36,637 bases of DNA, taken from IMG/VR virus record IMGVR_UViG_3300037485_000923, positions 1 to 36,637 of that record; one strand, given 5' to 3'. How positions within the stretch are numbered: the first letter of the stretch is position 1; each line of letters begins with the position of its first letter. Below are positions 5,429 through 34,258 of this stretch, one piece after another. Position numbers and translations under genes: made by a program. The notes below the pieces were generated by a model that did no database searches, was not told the origin of the DNA, and saw only the letters and a program-made list of their open reading frames with translations. Source of the DNA: a virus.

Positions 5429-6379
5429 ATGCCACAAGCAAATCTACTAGACATCGCCAAGATCAACGGCACTGACACAGTTGTCGGTTTGATCGAGGAA
5501 AACCAAACCGTTGCACCTGATGTGATGGCATTTCCAGCCCGCACGATTCGCGGAACGTCCTATAAAATCGGCGTCCGCAAATCTTATCCCGGCGTTGGAT
5601 TCCGTAACGCTAACGGAGGCACAACTTACACCAAGTCTGTCTTTGAAAACCGCCTGATCGAAACCTTCATCCTCTCGGGCAATGTCCGCGCAGACGTTGC
5701 AGTTGCGGGCGCTTACGAAGACGGTCCCGAGGCTTGGAAACTTATCGAAGCATCCGGCGTCATGGCGCAATCCATGATCGAACTTGGATCGCAAATCTAC
5801 TACGGCACTGGCACGGATTCCAAGGGATTCCCAGGCTTGCAAGAGATTCACGCTGCGTATTCCGCAACGCTCACCGAGCCTCTAACCGTTGACGCTCTCG
5901 GCACATCCGCTGGAACTGGATCGTCTGTTTACGGCGTGAAATTCGGACCGCAGGATTGCCAGTTAATCTTCGGCACAGGCAACGCTTTCGAGCTTGGCGA
6001 TTGGTTTAACCAAATGGTCAATGACGGCACTGCCGGTCAAGACTACCTCGCGCATGTCGCATCCCTCAACGCATGGGTGGGCTTGCAAGTTGGATCAGTG
6101 TATTCCGTGGGCCGCATCCGCGACCTAACCGCAGATGCAGGAAAGGGACTTACCGACGCGCTTATTGCTGATCTACTCAGCAAATATCCTATCGGAAAAC
6201 GCCCAGATGCGCTGTTCATGAACCGTCGTTCTGCTTATCAATTGCAGGTTTCGCGCAGCCCATCGAGCAACACATCCGGCAACGCTGCAACCATTCCGTT
6301 TGCAGAACTTCCAACATCTGCTTTCGGAATCCCGATCATCGTCACCGATTCGATCATCAACACCGAAGCCCTCAGCTAA
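5429..6379 (+). CDS. Major capsid protein
   Basis: This 316-residue protein is the probable main shell subunit, judged by position directly after the protease/scaffold gene and by its composition. The N-terminus has an acidic-helical lead ('LLDIAKINGTDTVVGLIEEN'), then beta-rich segments such as 'RTIRGTSYKIGVRKSYPGVGFR' and 'GSQIYYGTGTDSKGFPGL', and a C-terminal 'PDALFMNRRSAYQLQVSRS' with 'FGIPIIVTDSI'. Together these are the usual pattern of HK97-fold coats that recognise and orient their partner subunits. No Shine-Dalgarno is visible; the ATG follows 'taacctaattt'. The specific capsid subfamily cannot be named from sequence alone. Confidence 0.8.
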   Translation: MPQANLLDIAKINGTDTVVGLIEENQTVAPDVMAFPARTIRGTSYKIGVRKSYPGVGFRNANGGTTYTKSVFENRLIETFILSGNVRADVAVAGAYEDGPEAWKLIEASGVMAQSMIELGSQIYYGTGTDSKGFPGLQEIHAAYSATLTEPLTVDALGTSAGTGSSVYGVKFGPQDCQLIFGTGNAFELGDWFNQMVNDGTAGQDYLAHVASLNAWVGLQVGSVYSVGRIRDLTADAGKGLTDALIADLLSKYPIGKRPDALFMNRRSAYQLQVSRSPSSNTSGNAATIPFAELPTSAFGIPIIVTDSIINTEALS

Positions 6380-19115: not shown

Positions 19116-19367
19116 TTACGATTGGGCGAAAAGCAGGTCGATCCAGTTGTCTGGAGCGTCAGTGTCGGATGATGAGCCAATTACAACAGGCGGGCGCGCT
19201 TTGATTGCGGCGATGGTCGCAGATGCCTCGGCGCTCGATTTTGAGATGAATCCGAATCCGTTGCAGCGGAAGCACACTCCGTTTGCGCGACGGTATCCGA
19301 GGTTTCCAGTGCCGTTGCATTTTGGGCAGGAGTTGGAAGTGGAAACCATTGTGATCGTGTTGGACAT
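19116..19367 (-). CDS. Small DnaJ-type zinc-motif protein
   Basis: This is an 83-residue protein starting MSN at 19367, 20 nt after the end of a GTTGC array, the same distance as in two of the plus-strand copies. Residues about 14-42 hold CPKCNGTGNLG and CFRCNGFGF, two CxxCxGxG knuckles that probably bind one zinc, as in DnaJ. The Ala-rich helix 'AEASATIAAIKARPP' follows. It is a distant parallel of the 535-759 gene. Its role is unknown; DNA or nucleoprotein binding is a possibility. A start at 19406 would place the repeat array inside the coding region. Confidence 0.6.
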   Translation of the reverse strand: MSNTITMVSTSNSCPKCNGTGNLGYRRANGVCFRCNGFGFISKSSAEASATIAAIKARPPVVIGSSSDTDAPDNWIDLLFAQS

Positions 19368-19387
19368 GTGCAAACAATGCGTCCTAA

Positions 19388-19415
19388 GTTGCGTTCCTGC
19401 AACCAAAAACGCAAC
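19388..19415 (-). promoter_or_regulatory. GTTGC triple half-site array, minus-strand copy
   Basis: Read on the minus strand, it is GTTGC, 7 nt, GTTGC, 6 nt, GCAAC, with outer arms GTTGCGTT and AACGCAAC. It begins 2 nt after the stop of the upstream minus-strand gene and ends 20 nt before the ATGTCCAAC start of the zinc-motif gene. Three other copies are at 23265, 30928 and 32239. It is probably an operator or structured leader. Confidence 0.6.
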
Positions 19416-21769: not shown

Positions 21770-21781
21770 CAAACCAAGGGG

Positions 21782-21808
21782 CCGCGCATCTCACACGCGG
21801 AATTTTAC
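21782..21808 (+). terminator. Weak terminator-like hairpin after the RecT-like gene
   Basis: CCGCG (21782-21786) pairs with CGCGG (21796-21800) and is followed by AATTTTA. The stem is only 5 bp and the U-run short, so at most this would reduce read-through into the nuclease genes. Confidence 0.35.
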
Positions 21809-23264: not shown

Positions 23265-23293
23265 ACGCAACTTTTGAGTTGCACAAACGCAAC
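23265..23293 (+). promoter_or_regulatory. GTTGC array, copy with inverted first half-site
   Basis: GCAAC, 6 nt, GTTGC, 6 nt, GCAAC, inside ACGCAACTTTTGAGTTGC and ACAAACGCAAC. It starts 6 nt after the resolvase stop and lies 20 nt before the next ATG. The first half-site is GCAAC here but GTTGC in the other copies, so the pairing partner switches; the centre and right half-sites are conserved. The flank GAAAAA is shared with the other plus-strand copies. Confidence 0.65.
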
Positions 23294-23313
23294 ACGCAAG
23301 CCAAGGTCTGCAC

Positions 23314-23619
23314 ATGTCCAACACCGCTACCGACAATTCCATTATTATCGCGCAATCAAAAGACTGCCCATCTTCCACAATCTTTGAGATCGTGAAAGAG
23401 ACTGAAAAGGCGATTCAAATCAAGAATTGCGATATTGAACCCAAGCACGCTTTTCCAGTGTGGATTCCAAGATCACAAATTGGAACTGATACAATTAGCG
23501 TTCCGAAATGCGGCGACATGCCAGCCGTTACCGTTAAACGGATGTATTTCAAGCCATCTGTTTTTCGGATGATGGATAAGCCTTGGAAGCGCGTCGCCGT
23601 TGGATTTTCCTGCTACTAA
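23314..23619 (+). CDS. Unrecognised cargo gene of repeat cassette 1
   Basis: This is a 101-residue protein beginning MSN, 20 nt after the GTTGC array. It has 'EIVKETEKAIQIKNCDIEPKHAFPVWIPRSQI', then 'ISVPKCGDMPAVTVKRMYFKPSVFRMMDKPWKRVAVGF', a mixed alpha/beta protein with several Cys and a basic C-terminal half. No known domain. It is followed by a T-loop hairpin before the next gene. The start region ATGTCCAACACC is nearly the same as that of the 19367 gene, although the proteins are unrelated. Confidence 0.65.
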   Translation: MSNTATDNSIIIAQSKDCPSSTIFEIVKETEKAIQIKNCDIEPKHAFPVWIPRSQIGTDTISVPKCGDMPAVTVKRMYFKPSVFRMMDKPWKRVAVGFSCY

Positions 23620-23627
23620 CCACTCAC

Positions 23628-23646
23628 CGGAGGTTCGATCCCTCCG
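23628..23646 (+). other. tRNA T-loop-like hairpin 1
   Basis: CGGAGG and CCTCCG form a 6-bp stem closing the loop TTCGATC. With G53-C61 closing, U54, U55, C56 and A58 present, this is the exact layout of a tRNA T-arm, but no acceptor, D or anticodon arm is present around it. It lies 13 nt before the ATG at 23660. Two related hairpins are at 31174 and 32459. Confidence 0.65.
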
Positions 23647-23659
23647 CAATAAAAACAAC

Positions 23660-23926
23660 ATGACCAAAAAACAAAGAATACTCCGCGACATTGCGGATAT
23701 CGAACGATCATTTGACCGTCTAGGCGAGGCCGCAGAACTCGTCCACAAAGCCAGCATCATGGACTTCGACGGCGAGTTTATGGACTCCAACAAATGCTTG
23801 ATTTGGGATCTGGTGAACGTAATCGACCCAAGCGAATGCCTTGCTGACTACCTCAGATACCGCAAGGTATCGCCTGACCAGGTGGCAGATGCAATCCTTG
23901 CATGGAGGACTGAAAATGACCGCTGA
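23660..23926 (+). CDS. Unrecognised small acidic protein
   Basis: This is an 88-residue protein starting after T-loop hairpin 1. 'TKKQRILRDIADIERSFDRLGEAAELVHKASIMDFDGEFMDSNKCLIWDLVNVIDPSECLADYLRYRKVSPDQVADAILAWRTEN' is helical and acidic; no family is recognised. Its end overlaps the next small gene by 11 nt. Its position between repeat cassette 1 and the helicase-methyltransferase suggests an accessory role. Confidence 0.6.
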   Translation: MTKKQRILRDIADIERSFDRLGEAAELVHKASIMDFDGEFMDSNKCLIWDLVNVIDPSECLADYLRYRKVSPDQVADAILAWRTENDR

Positions 23927-30927: not shown

Positions 30928-30955
30928 GTTGCGTTTTGTGTTGCACAAACGCAAC
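30928..30955 (+). promoter_or_regulatory. GTTGC triple half-site array, best-conserved copy
   Basis: Half-sites GTTGC, GTTGC and GCAAC are spaced 7 and 6 nt apart; the outer arms GTTGCGTTT and AAACGCAAC are a 9-bp inverted repeat. It begins 4 nt after the DnaB stop. The preceding bases GAAAAATAAATGAGAAA resemble those before the 32239 copy. A further GTTGC/GCAAC pair (30977-30991) lies downstream before the ATG. Confidence 0.7.
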
Positions 30956-31007
30956 CAGTGAGTCAGAGTCTTCTCAGTTGCAGCAAGCAACGCTACTCCA
31001 CAAAAAA

Positions 31008-31163
31008 ATGACAACGCACACCAACGCAGCAGGAACCGATTATTTTTCCACCAATGACGAAAACGGCCAAACGGTTTATTCGTTCTCCACAGATTTTAAC
31101 GACGTTTGGACGCAGGATGACGAGGACGCAATCAACGCAGACTCCACTCCATCCAAACTCTGA
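31008..31163 (+). CDS. Unrecognised cargo gene of repeat cassette 2
   Basis: This is a 51-residue acidic protein: 'TTHTNAAGTDYFSTNDENGQTVYSFSTDFNDVWTQDDEDAINADST'. Rich in Asp/Asn/Thr, probably small and partly disordered; it resembles no family known to me. It lies 52 nt after the GTTGC array (longer than in the other cassettes) and 10 nt before T-loop hairpin 2. The 'caaaaaaatg' leader has no Shine-Dalgarno. Confidence 0.55.
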   Translation: MTTHTNAAGTDYFSTNDENGQTVYSFSTDFNDVWTQDDEDAINADSTPSKL

Positions 31164-31173
31164 TTTCCACCAA

Positions 31174-31192
31174 GCCGGGTTCCATCCCCGGC
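31174..31192 (+). other. tRNA T-loop-like hairpin 2
   Basis: GCCGGG and CCCGGC enclose the loop TTCCATC (U54, U55, C56, A58 present; position 57 is C instead of purine). The stem sequence differs from hairpins 1 and 3 by compensatory changes that keep it paired. It is 15 nt before the ATG at 31208. Confidence 0.6.
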
Positions 31193-31207
31193 GCATCCCC
31201 AAAAACA

Positions 31208-31519
31208 ATGAACGAACTCACAAAACTAATCGCGGAATTTCACGCGACACTGGCAAAATTCGAGGCAATCGCAAAACGCATGGAGGAGCGGGAATCAGGC
31301 ATCGACCCCACCATGCGGGATTTGCCGTTTCCAGATGGAGTTATCCCGCCGCCGCTACCCGAGGGCAAAACCCGGTGGATTTACCGCGGGACGTTTATGG
31401 CGGACGATGCGTTTTACGTCGATCCACCAAGGCATATCGAGTATTTCAGTCGTCACGAAAAACGCTGGTGCATCACCTGCCATTTTTCCACAGACCTCCA
31501 TCACATCGAGGCCGTATGA
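31208..31519 (+). CDS. Unrecognised small protein
   Basis: This is a 103-residue protein. 'LTKLIAEFHATLAKFEAIAKRMEERESGIDPTMRDLPFPDGVIPPPLPEGKTRWIYRGTFMADDAFYVDPPRHIEYFSRHEKRWCITCHF': N-terminal coiled helix, then a Pro-rich linker and a compact C-terminal part with CxxCHF and several aromatic residues. No family is recognised. The ATG follows T-loop hairpin 2, and the stop overlaps the next ATG. Confidence 0.6.
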   Translation: MNELTKLIAEFHATLAKFEAIAKRMEERESGIDPTMRDLPFPDGVIPPPLPEGKTRWIYRGTFMADDAFYVDPPRHIEYFSRHEKRWCITCHFSTDLHHIEAV

Positions 31520-32238: not shown

Positions 32239-32266
32239 GTTGCGTTTTGTGTTGCGTAAGCGCAAT
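32239..32266 (+). promoter_or_regulatory. GTTGC triple half-site array, divergent copy
   Basis: GTTGC, 7 nt, GTTGC, 6 nt, GCAAT; the outer arms are TTGCG and CGCAA. It begins 2 nt after the upstream stop and ends 20 nt before the MSN start at 32287, the same spacing as at 19388 and 23265. Confidence 0.6.
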
Positions 32267-32286
32267 CCGTCCGCTATTCCTTTTGC

Positions 32287-32448
32287 ATGTCCAACAACAA
32301 CACCGAAGCCAAAGCCCAAATCAAAGCAATCCTCCAATCCAAGTTTCTAAAGCTGGTTAGCGAAGGAATGAATCCAGAAACTGCATTTGCAGATGTCATG
32401 GGAGCTTTTGAAGATCAATTTCCGGGCTTGATCGAAAAACTCGGATAA
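32287..32448 (+). CDS. Unrecognised cargo gene of repeat cassette 3
   Basis: This is a 53-residue protein. It reads 'NNNTEAKAQIKAILQSKFLKLVSEGMNPETAFADVMGAFEDQFPGLIEKLG', two helices with an acidic C-terminal half. No family is recognised. Located between the third GTTGC array and T-loop hairpin 3, it begins MSN with the ATGTCCAAC start shared by the 19367 and 23314 genes. Confidence 0.6.
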   Translation: MSNNNTEAKAQIKAILQSKFLKLVSEGMNPETAFADVMGAFEDQFPGLIEKLG

Positions 32449-32458
32449 TACCAAACCC

Positions 32459-32481
32459 AGCCGAGGTTCAATCCCTCGGCT
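32459..32481 (+). other. tRNA T-loop-like hairpin 3
   Basis: AGCCGAGG and CCTCGGCT form an 8-bp stem closing the loop TTCAATC (U54, U55, C56, A57, A58, U59, C60), an exact T-arm layout with a longer stem than the other two. It is 7 nt before the ATG at 32489. No upstream sequence complements the region as a tRNA acceptor stem. Confidence 0.65.
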
Positions 32482-32488
32482 CACCGCC

Positions 32489-32635
32489 ATGATAATCATA
32501 TTCTCTACCAGCCTGCTCTTTCTCATCCCGTTCCGCATAATGGGATGCACATGGCCGCAAGCCGTGTTCCAATTGCTCTCAGTATGGGCAATGCTATTCC
32601 TCGTTTATCTAACCTACATCGTCCTTAAAGCATGA
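32489..32635 (+). CDS. 48-residue membrane protein
   Basis: This short ORF starts 7 nt after T-loop hairpin 3. 'IIIFSTSLLFLIPFRIMGC' and 'FQLLSVWAMLFLVYLTYIVL' are two membrane helices with a short loop between them. It overlaps the HTH gene by four bases. It may be a small inner-membrane accessory or exclusion protein. No family is recognised. Confidence 0.5.
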   Translation: MIIIFSTSLLFLIPFRIMGCTWPQAVFQLLSVWAMLFLVYLTYIVLKA

Positions 32636-32804: not shown

Positions 32805-33308
32805 ATGGCCAAGCCTGCAAAATGGGACAGCATGACGCCAAGCGAGCAGGAGGCTTGGCGTGAAAGGAGGCAAGAATACGCTCGCAAACGCTACGAAGCG
32901 AATCGCGAAAAATTACGGGAAAAAAATCGCGAACGGCGCGAGGCAAATCCCGAGAAAGCTCGGGAAGCGCATTGCAAATACCGCGAAGCAAATCGTGATA
33001 AATGTCAAGAACGCGTTCGCAAATGGCGCGAGGCAAATCCTGAGAAAGCGCGTCAAGTATATCGCAAATATCGCGAGGCAAATCCTGAGAAAGCGCGTCA
33101 AGTATATCGCAAATATCGCGAGGCGAATATTGAAAAGCGCCGGAAATACGCTCGCAAATGGCGCGAGGCAAATCGTGAAAAAGAACAGGAATCAGCTCGC
33201 AAACGCCACCATAAAGCTCTTCAACAAGCTGCCGCAGACCAATTTTTCATCCTAGCAGGCGCTGCCGAATCAATCTCCAAACTAAAACTGAAATCAAAAT
33301 CAAAATGA
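32805..33308 (+). CDS. Lys/Arg-rich REAN-repeat protein, paralog 1
   Basis: This is a 167-residue protein. The N-terminus 'KPAKWDSMTPSEQEAWRERR' is followed by about seven 15-residue units with the core KYREANxEKxRE, mainly charged and helical, and a C-terminal 'ADQFFILAGAAESISKL'. Two units are a perfect 45-bp tandem duplication (33031-33120). The paralogs at 33887 and 34599 share the N-terminal box. The repeats suggest a long basic helix that may bind nucleic acid; similar proteins are widespread in phages but their job is unknown. Confidence 0.7.
   Translation: MAKPAKWDSMTPSEQEAWRERRQEYARKRYEANREKLREKNRERREANPEKAREAHCKYREANRDKCQERVRKWREANPEKARQVYRKYREANPEKARQVYRKYREANIEKRRKYARKWREANREKEQESARKRHHKALQQAAADQFFILAGAAESISKLKLKSKSK
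33031..33120 (+). repeat. Two perfect tandem 45-bp units
   Basis: The 45 bases at 33031-33075 are repeated exactly at 33076-33120, encoding the 15-residue unit REANPEKARQVYRKY twice. The exactness shows a recent duplication within the otherwise divergent repeat array. Confidence 0.85.
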
Positions 33309-33883
33309 AAACGACACTAACGACAAAAGAAACAAATCAGAAAATCCAGACCTTTATCACGCTTTTCAAAGAGGGCGTTGAGGCTTGGATCAAGGCCGGT
33401 GAAATCCTCGTGGAACTCGTTGAGTCAGATCCGCACACCTACGATTACATCATCCAGGAATGCCCGCAGTTAAACGCTGGCATCCTCGGGCGGTTTGAAC
33501 AAATGGGCCGTAAGATTTTGCATCCACAGCTATTGCTCACAGCATCGCCGGGATTCGCCAAGCTCACCAAAATGCCATTCAGCCTCCAAGAACGCTATCT
33601 AGAAGAGCCGATCCCGATGATCATCGTTAACGAGGGCGAGACGGATATCCACATGGTGCAGGCGAAAAACATGACCAAGGAGCAGGCGGATCAGATTTTT
33701 ACGGCTAACCGCATCCGCACCGAGGGCGAACAAAAGGCATGGATTTTGCAGCGCCAACAGAACGCAGTGAAGCCCACGCCAGCGTTCTCGAAGCCTTGGA
33801 CGATCAAGGGTAGCAAGGTGCTTATCAATGGCCTTGAGTTTACCCGCAAGGAGCTAGCCGGGATTTTGGCGCAAATGGATTGA
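33305..33883 (+). CDS. Unrecognised accessory protein
   Basis: This is a 192-residue protein. It has 'KIQTFITLFKEGVEAWIKAGEILVELVESDPHTYDYIIQECPQLNAGILGRFEQMGRKILHPQLLL' (helical), 'ASPGFAKLTKMPFSLQERYLEEPIPMIIVNEGETDIHMVQAKNMTKEQADQIF', and a C-terminal 'WTIKGSKVLINGLEFTRKELAGILAQMD'. The last 30 residues look like a compact beta-hairpin-plus-helix domain. It resembles small regulatory phage proteins, but no family can be named. It sits between two K/R-repeat paralogs with a 4-nt overlap with the first. Confidence 0.65.
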   Translation: MKTTLTTKETNQKIQTFITLFKEGVEAWIKAGEILVELVESDPHTYDYIIQECPQLNAGILGRFEQMGRKILHPQLLLTASPGFAKLTKMPFSLQERYLEEPIPMIIVNEGETDIHMVQAKNMTKEQADQIFTANRIRTEGEQKAWILQRQQNAVKPTPAFSKPWTIKGSKVLINGLEFTRKELAGILAQMD

Positions 33884-33886
33884 GGT

Positions 33887-34258
33887 ATGGCCAAGCCTGC
33901 AAAATGGGACAGCATGACGCCAAGCGAGCAAGATGATTGGCGTGAAAGGAGGCGGGAATTAGATCGCAAATACCGCGCGGAAAATCCTGAAAAGGCTCGG
34001 GAAAAAGATTGTAAACGCGGTCGCAAATACCGTGAAGCCAATCGTGAAAAAGTGAGGGAATCAAAACGCAAATGGTTCGAAACGAATTCTGAAAAACAGC
34101 GGGAAGCAGTTCGTAAATGGAATGAAGCGAATCCTGAAAAAAAGCGGGAATCGAGACGCAAAACAAAGCAAAAAGCCAAACAGCAAACCGCCGCCGATCA
34201 ATTCTTTATCCTAGCCGGAGCCGCAGAACAACTAACCAAACTGAAACTGAAAAAATGA
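33887..34258 (+). CDS. Lys/Arg-rich REAN-repeat protein, paralog 2
   Basis: This is a 123-residue protein. Its first 44 bases are identical to those of paralog 1, then 'DDWRERRRELDRKYRAENPEKARE' follows with fewer repeat units (about four), and the C-terminus 'AADQFFILAGAAEQLTKLKLKK' matches paralog 1 in protein but differs at many third positions. This asymmetry suggests recent gene conversion at the 5' end. Same possible nucleic-acid-binding role. Stop overlaps the MazG-like ATG. Confidence 0.7.
   Translation: MAKPAKWDSMTPSEQDDWRERRRELDRKYRAENPEKAREKDCKRGRKYREANREKVRESKRKWFETNSEKQREAVRKWNEANPEKKRESRRKTKQKAKQQTAADQFFILAGAAEQLTKLKLKK

Follow-up and report, generated by a model that had tools for sequence, protein, structure and literature searches.

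Comparison of sequences shows that viral contigs carry a family of intercistronic RNA elements: hairpins in which pairing is kept, which lie on the mRNA-sense strand, and which recur independently of the genes that flank them. The recurring unit consists of a stop codon, a short C/A-rich and G-poor spacer, a stem of 5-11 bp closed by GG/CC, a loop resembling that of a tRNA T-arm (UYCNAYC), a C/A-rich spacer and an AUG. We found no described counterpart between stop and start codons in the open-licence literature.

The window, a virus record from IMG/VR that spans 36,637 bases, encodes a terminase, a portal, a major head protein, RecT, a RecE-type exonuclease, a helicase-methyltransferase and DnaB. 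Three of the hairpins are present on its + strand, with positions, loops and stems exactly as reported in a preliminary description of this DNA: H1 (23628-23646; stem CGGAGG/CCTCCG, 6 bp; loop TTCGATC), H2 (31174-31192; stem GCCGGG/CCCGGC, 6 bp; loop TTCCATC) and H3 (32459-32481; stem AGCCGAGG/CCTCGGCT, 8 bp; loop TTCAATC). Their scores with R1, a model of the family introduced below, are 42.3 bits (at 23616-23662), 45.4 bits and 37.0 bits, respectively. All neighboring genes are on the + strand as well. H1 lies between a 101 aa gene that starts MSN (23314-23619) and an 88 aa gene (23660-23926), H2 between a 51 aa ORF (31008-31163) and a 103 aa gene (31208-31519), and H3 between a 53 aa ORF starting MSNN (32287-32448) and a hydrophobic ORF of 48 aa (32489-32635); the coding regions downstream of H2 and H3 have no PHROG match. 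The hairpins had been described as lying just before start codons, which is correct as to distance (gaps of 13, 15 and 7 nt to the ATGs at 23660, 31208 and 32489), but all three start 8-10 nt past the preceding stop codon (stops end at 23619, 31163 and 32448) and are therefore intercistronic rather than simple 5' leaders. The spacers between stop and stem are G-free (23620-23627, 31164-31173 and 32449-32458), while those between stem and ATG are A/C-rich after H1 (23647-23659), C/A-rich after H2 (31193-31207) and C-rich after H3 (32482-32488).

RNA folding recovers each of H1-H3 as an isolated hairpin with the rest of the RNA open, with modest energy z-scores (-0.9 to -2.9 for 76-81 nt pieces around them). 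The window has three occurrences of GGTTCNATCC; each lies on the + strand, inside one of these hairpins. In 1000 dinucleotide-preserving shuffles of the window, TYCNAYC hairpins with at least 6 pairs averaged 0.024 (maximum 1), compared with the 3 observed. The loops match tRNA T-loops, and chance matches or remnants of tRNA genes might be considered as their source; this is almost certainly wrong, being refuted by the shuffles and by a reversed-loop control (see below), by pairing that is longer than a 5-bp T-stem, by a context that stays constant beside unrelated genes, and by the lack of a tRNA body around the hairpins, already stated in the preliminary description and borne out by ARAGORN (0 tRNA or tmRNA genes in the window). 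No Rfam model matched the family in the whole window or in the surroundings of H3 (Rfam 15; 0 matches at gathering score across the window, and weak unrelated matches alone around H3). There is no U-run directly 3' of H1-H3, and no SAS/ESAS-type GGGATAGGAGCCC with a Shine-Dalgarno (SD) core beside them. By eye, their flanks are both C/A-rich and not complementary, unlike those of integron attC sites, in which complementary R'/R'' arms surround the hairpin. For 36 proteins of the window, 25 of 28 Pfam families were listed, and none of these 25 is that of a tRNA-modifying enzyme.

The family was searched for with the stem-plus-loop patterns GCCGGGTYCNAYCCCCGGC and CCGAGGTYCNAYCCCTCGG, in viral contigs only. 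These patterns matched at least 106 loci, at least 80 of them from GCCGGGTYCNAYCCCCGGC, and about half of the pattern sites share the layout TAA, C/A-rich spacer, hairpin, C/A-rich spacer, ATG. A stop codon, an ATG and low-G flanks accompany 37 of the 66 classifiable unique GCCGGG sites (among the matches listed) and 9 of 20 CCGAGG sites, compared with 0 of 32 sites in a control in which the stem was kept and the loop letters were reversed (Fisher p ~4e-9 vs the GCCGGG set). Counting near-identical segments once and allowing a spacer G content of ≤20%, 70 of 77 unique copies were retained; these 70 distinct credible copies, a set that includes a few doubtful rows (e.g., L230, L099 3260-3306 and L308), come from 56 loci and adjoin 55 upstream and 48 downstream protein clusters (among the matches listed). 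The preliminary description would have been refuted by a covariance search that gave no more copies in relatives; R1, a model built from 52 of 62 non-redundant copies, did recover copies in relatives, and at E≤0.001 whole-record searches gave 1-6 matches per record in 50 of 50 records, all of them selected as already containing a copy. When 50,697 phage records were searched with short queries, no convincing copy emerged. A T-type hairpin also occurs in another context (AAGCCTGAGACGG...CCCGTGCCGGG...GTCGCC), shared by L230, L234, L246 and L258, that is not clearly intercistronic.

Stem sequences differ among copies while pairing is maintained. In an alignment of 52 gap-free copies, which were chosen for pairing, 99% of the cells for the six stem pairs are paired, and two-sided stem changes number 65 vs 21.6 from shuffling. 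When sites were picked by loop and stop context only, with the searched-for stems excluded, pairs 3, 4 and 5 were formed at 18, 15 and 17 of 19 post-stop sites vs 15, 16 and 15 of 40 sites elsewhere, with a few rows that by eye would require G-U pairs. The compensatory stem changes first noted among H1-H3 extend to related and unrelated phages, and they point to a hairpin conserved at the RNA level.

The loop departs in places from that of a tRNA. Position 57 is free (G33 A21 C21 T3; n = 78), position 55 is T62/C16 and position 59 is T64/C14 (n = 78), while the search pattern itself prescribed positions 54, 56, 58 and 60, so that conservation at these four is partly built in. Near-variant loops also exist (TTTGATC, TTCGATA, TCCCATT and TCCAACA). 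The likeness to the T-arm that had been claimed rests on U54, C56, A58 and the G53-C61 pair, which are kept in all three window copies; equating the family with the tRNA T-loop goes too far, since C55 in 16 of 78 and a pyrimidine at position 57 in 24 of 78 mean that it is no faithful T-loop and not generally a TruB substrate. TruB as a general reader was rejected for the former reason. Relative to the T-arm as set out in PMC7912444, the shared features are the 7-nt loop, U54, C56, A58, Y60 and the G53-C61 pair; the present hairpins differ in having no tRNA body, stems of 5-11 bp, a tolerance for Y55 and N57, and a location between protein genes.

Recognition of the hairpin by a T-arm enzyme, predicted from its shape, is possible. 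In one alternative, a host T-arm-modifying enzyme (TrmA or TrmFO) would methylate U54 of the phage mRNA, thereby marking or stabilizing the hairpin. A stem of 5 bp with a T-loop of 7 nt suffices for TrmA, TrmFO and TruB (PMC7912444), the residues U54, C56, A58 and G53-C61 are retained, and R1 in bacterial genomes mostly recovers true T-arms (9 of 15 inspected matches are at tRNA or tmRNA genes). The C55 and pyrimidine 57 variants speak against such a target, the former excluding TruB in general, and the conserved positions 54, 56 and 58 belonged to the search pattern; we regard this alternative as distinctly unlikely.

The hairpin is positioned more tightly relative to the stop codon than to the AUG. 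The stop-to-stem distance is 9.7 ± 2.7 nt and the stem-to-ATG distance 20.9 ± 9.4 nt (77 unique copies), ranges that are bounded by search windows of 20 and 50 nt, respectively. The ATG falls in any frame relative to the stop (ATG minus stop modulo 3, 27/25/25; n = 77), so there is no readthrough, and a role as readthrough or frameshift stimulator was rejected. The stop codon is TAA in 55 of 70 copies, and the upstream spacer is without G in 55 of 70; overall, spacers are 40% C, 36% A and 7.5% G, and being nearly G-free they offer no partner for the loop within the element itself. Just 5 of 70 copies have TTTT within 10 nt 3' of the stem, on which grounds an intrinsic terminator was rejected. 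An SD-like 4-mer precedes 3 of 70 genes that follow a hairpin, compared with 107 of 472 other genes from the same loci with a gap of at least 20 nt, a comparison set based on crude gene prediction and including mispredicted starts.

Each window hairpin comes after the first gene behind a repeated palindromic leader. Leaders of this GTTGCGTTTTGTGTTGCACAAACGCAAC type are located at 23272-23323, 30928-30985, 32239-32296 and, on the minus strand, 19357-19415; the leader stands at the start of the operons with H1-H3 and may be an operator or promoter repeat, and 3 of the 4 units then begin ATGTCCAACA. Farther downstream (32805-34258), two related ORFs (32805-33308 and 33887-34258) contain imperfect 45-nt tandem repeats. 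A location behind the first gene, together with single-stranded, G-poor flanks, would suit a transcription element similar to lambda nut/rut, with Rho loading at the C-rich, G-poor flanks and a hairpin that, like boxB, serves as the binding site of an antiterminator. Lambda nutR likewise follows the first gene of its operon and has a hairpin flanked by G-poor stretches, but its boxB has a 5-nt loop bound by N, its rut sites are longer, and there are two sites per genome. The present hairpins have short flanks and can occupy as many as 3 successive junctions of one operon (L219, L220 and L223), no boxA-like sequence was noticed in an unsystematic look, and anchoring to the stop codon would be left unexplained; such a transcription element seems improbable to us.

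Relatives of the window were gathered by terminase and helicase; the DnaB helicase as search bait gave none. The pattern GGTTCNANCC matched 13 of 49 whole records, with a reversed-pattern control equally frequent. Among these relatives, hairpins of this kind were recovered only in the near-identical L019/G010 and the related phages G005 and G008, while those with only the terminase or helicase gene in common mostly lack them. G008 has four hairpins, of which two come after the opening two genes of a small operon, one after the last gene, where it faces the integrase gene, and one after RecT; their loops are TCCAATC, TTCCACC, TTCAATC and TCCGACC, and the loop consensus was therefore widened to TYCNAYC. 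The copy facing the integrase gene closes an operon and heads no start, which counts against the tie to start codons proposed in the preliminary description. The same MSN starts in G008 share another upstream leader, TTATTTAATTGTNGAC (L099 5699-5758 and 4764-4823, minus strand), and near the G008 integrase a tRNA 3'-end-like stretch, GTAGGTTCGAATCCCACCCCCTCCGCC (L099, about 5893-5925, minus strand), is possibly the integrase attachment site.

Comparisons between close relatives place the hairpin at the borders of replaced genes. In the window and L217, the 33-mer GCCTAACCACTCACCGGAGGTTCGATCCCTCCG or a near copy comes after a small gene; the gene before it is an unrelated small one in L019, RecT in G008, and yet another in L216/L218. 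G005 and G008 show 99.8% and 99.5% identity on the two sides of a single replaced gene, the left border of which is at the hairpin. The window and L019 are 92% identical until 14 nt into a gene, and similarity (84%) resumes at the stop codon of that gene and the hairpin, the two stretches being separated by an unrelated gene; the gene upstream of H1 has an unrelated gene in its place in L019. These alignments indicate that close relatives exchange genes at the hairpin. A DNA-level boundary sequence that guides exchange through RecT-type annealing could account for junctions at the hairpin, for the RecT genes of these phages, and for the same 33-mer or near copy adjoining unrelated genes. However, the stems vary in sequence yet pair, contrary to the needs of a homology anchor, and the mRNA-sense orientation after stop codons is kept; we therefore consider a DNA boundary quite improbable.

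Among genomes, the closest proteins to the window helicase-methyltransferase are found in Opitutia and Verrucomicrobiaceae (70-71% identity) and, at 56%, in Spartobacteria, from which the host is taken to be a member of the Verrucomicrobiota; many of the phages that carry the hairpin are probably phages of this phylum. Some Verrucomicrobiota, e.g., Akkermansia, are SD-scarce (PMC10783764). Strict hairpin patterns had 0/288 and 0/240 hits in Verrucomicrobiota genomes, and R1 (E≤0.01) matched 63 of 286 genomes in the class of G051 (a Verrucomicrobiaceae bacterium), which is no higher a frequency than in two control groups, the class of G582 (Pseudomonas; 53 of 263) and the phylum of G583 (a planctomycete; 77 of 280). 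An element of the host chromosome was rejected on the basis of these results. Twenty matches in G372 were likewise rejected as host copies, the fetched regions L370-L381 being an unrelated chromosomal palindrome except for the differing L370; in L371-L381 (G372, class of G051) this palindrome is multi-copy and REP-like, with tRNA-T-arm-like letters GGGGGTCGAACCCGCGGAGCCGGGTTCGACCCCCGGCT. The exact loop was found in 0 of 96 host post-stop hairpins (800 kb from four genomes of the G051 class), and a general host preference for a T-like loop was rejected accordingly. In two genomes of the G051 class, G295 (L382; phrog_10, E 1e-37) and G280 (L385/L425; phrog_1005, E 1.8e-10), a gene for a major head protein is immediately followed by an element-like hairpin, with the loop TCCCATT in G280; we take both loci to be prophages. 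As far as tested, the hairpin element is a phage trait.

A generic stable intercistronic hairpin, serving as a 3'-end shield or cistron insulator, with the T-loop as a favored fast-folding loop and no specific binder, would be in keeping with the copies behind major head genes in the two prophages, with a mean hairpin energy of -12.4 kcal/mol, and with the other hairpins held by similar spacers elsewhere. The loop letters are constrained, however: among 20 low-G post-stop hairpins that were not fetched by stem plus loop, 11 have the exact loop (several of these from related contigs), 2 have a near loop (TTTGATC and TTCGATA) and 7 have another, and 0 of 96 host post-stop hairpins have this exact loop. 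We rate a purely generic hairpin as possible but somewhat unlikely. Similar spacers elsewhere have a GAAA hairpin, another hairpin or none; the T-loop may not be essential for such a role, and a T-like loop may be the habit of a lineage. In other phages, C/A-rich (CCAA) stretches and a CCCCCC-GAAA-GGGGGG hairpin precede an ATG (L330 and L335), and a CCAA stretch precedes an ATG without a hairpin in L328. Another hairpin that recurs between cistrons, GGGG(G)CCGCGCATCYYACACGCGG, lies 11-17 nt past a stop codon (window 21778-21800) and is also present in L217, L099 (-1116), L250, L270, L273, L279, L282 and L033, several of them from phages that have the T-type hairpin as well; in L033, a relative, the T-type hairpin was not found. 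Phage T4 has stable intercistronic CUUCGG hairpins, which are similarly stable, have a favored loop and lie between phage genes, but their loop is a different one, and fixed C/A-rich flanks and anchoring to the stop are features of the present element.

The nearest published parallel is the SAS/ESAS of Cluster K mycobacteriophages, which are repeated at many gene junctions and for which the authors of PMC3203893 give the function as unknown. Like the hairpin, they are short repeats of one phage group that adjoin diverse gene families and are nearly absent from the host genome (PMC3203893). They differ in having an SD core at the start codon, whereas the hairpin is post-stop and without SD, and the statements on ESAS in PMC3203893 find little support for RNA pairing, whereas covariation of the RNA type is seen here. 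The plastid intercistronic expression element is also a small element between cistrons; it defines monocistronic units (PMC2230500). It belongs to a different organism, has a different sequence, and has been proven to be cleaved (PMC2230500).

We tentatively favor, at a little less than an even chance, a reading in which the hairpin acts as an intercistronic punctuation mark in SD-poor polycistronic phage mRNA. The hairpin would fold just beyond the terminating ribosome, separating the structure of one cistron from that of the next and keeping neighboring genes from pairing, and the G-free sequence ahead of the next AUG would stay unpaired, available for initiation without SD. Protection of the upstream 3' end against exonucleases may be a further effect. 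A weaker part of this proposal is that the loop is retained since a putative trans partner binds there; candidates are a T-arm-binding host protein, e.g., a TrmA-type methyltransferase, and an RNA whose GG would pair with loop C56 in a D-loop-like manner. An element held in common would permit clean gene exchange between phages. In a more far-reaching version, which we think unlikely, T-arm mimics at cistron borders would attract either a host factor that binds tRNA arms or a GG-bearing RNA, so as to signal where genes end and let the following gene start independently of SD pairing, with the common borders turning genes into plug-in cassettes that are exchanged singly.

The hairpins represent a compact RNA family, spread through uncultured phages, that places a tRNA-like loop between stop and start codons. 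This family could reveal how the cistrons of a polycistronic phage mRNA are told apart when SD signals are scarce, and could explain clean single-gene swaps between temperate phages.
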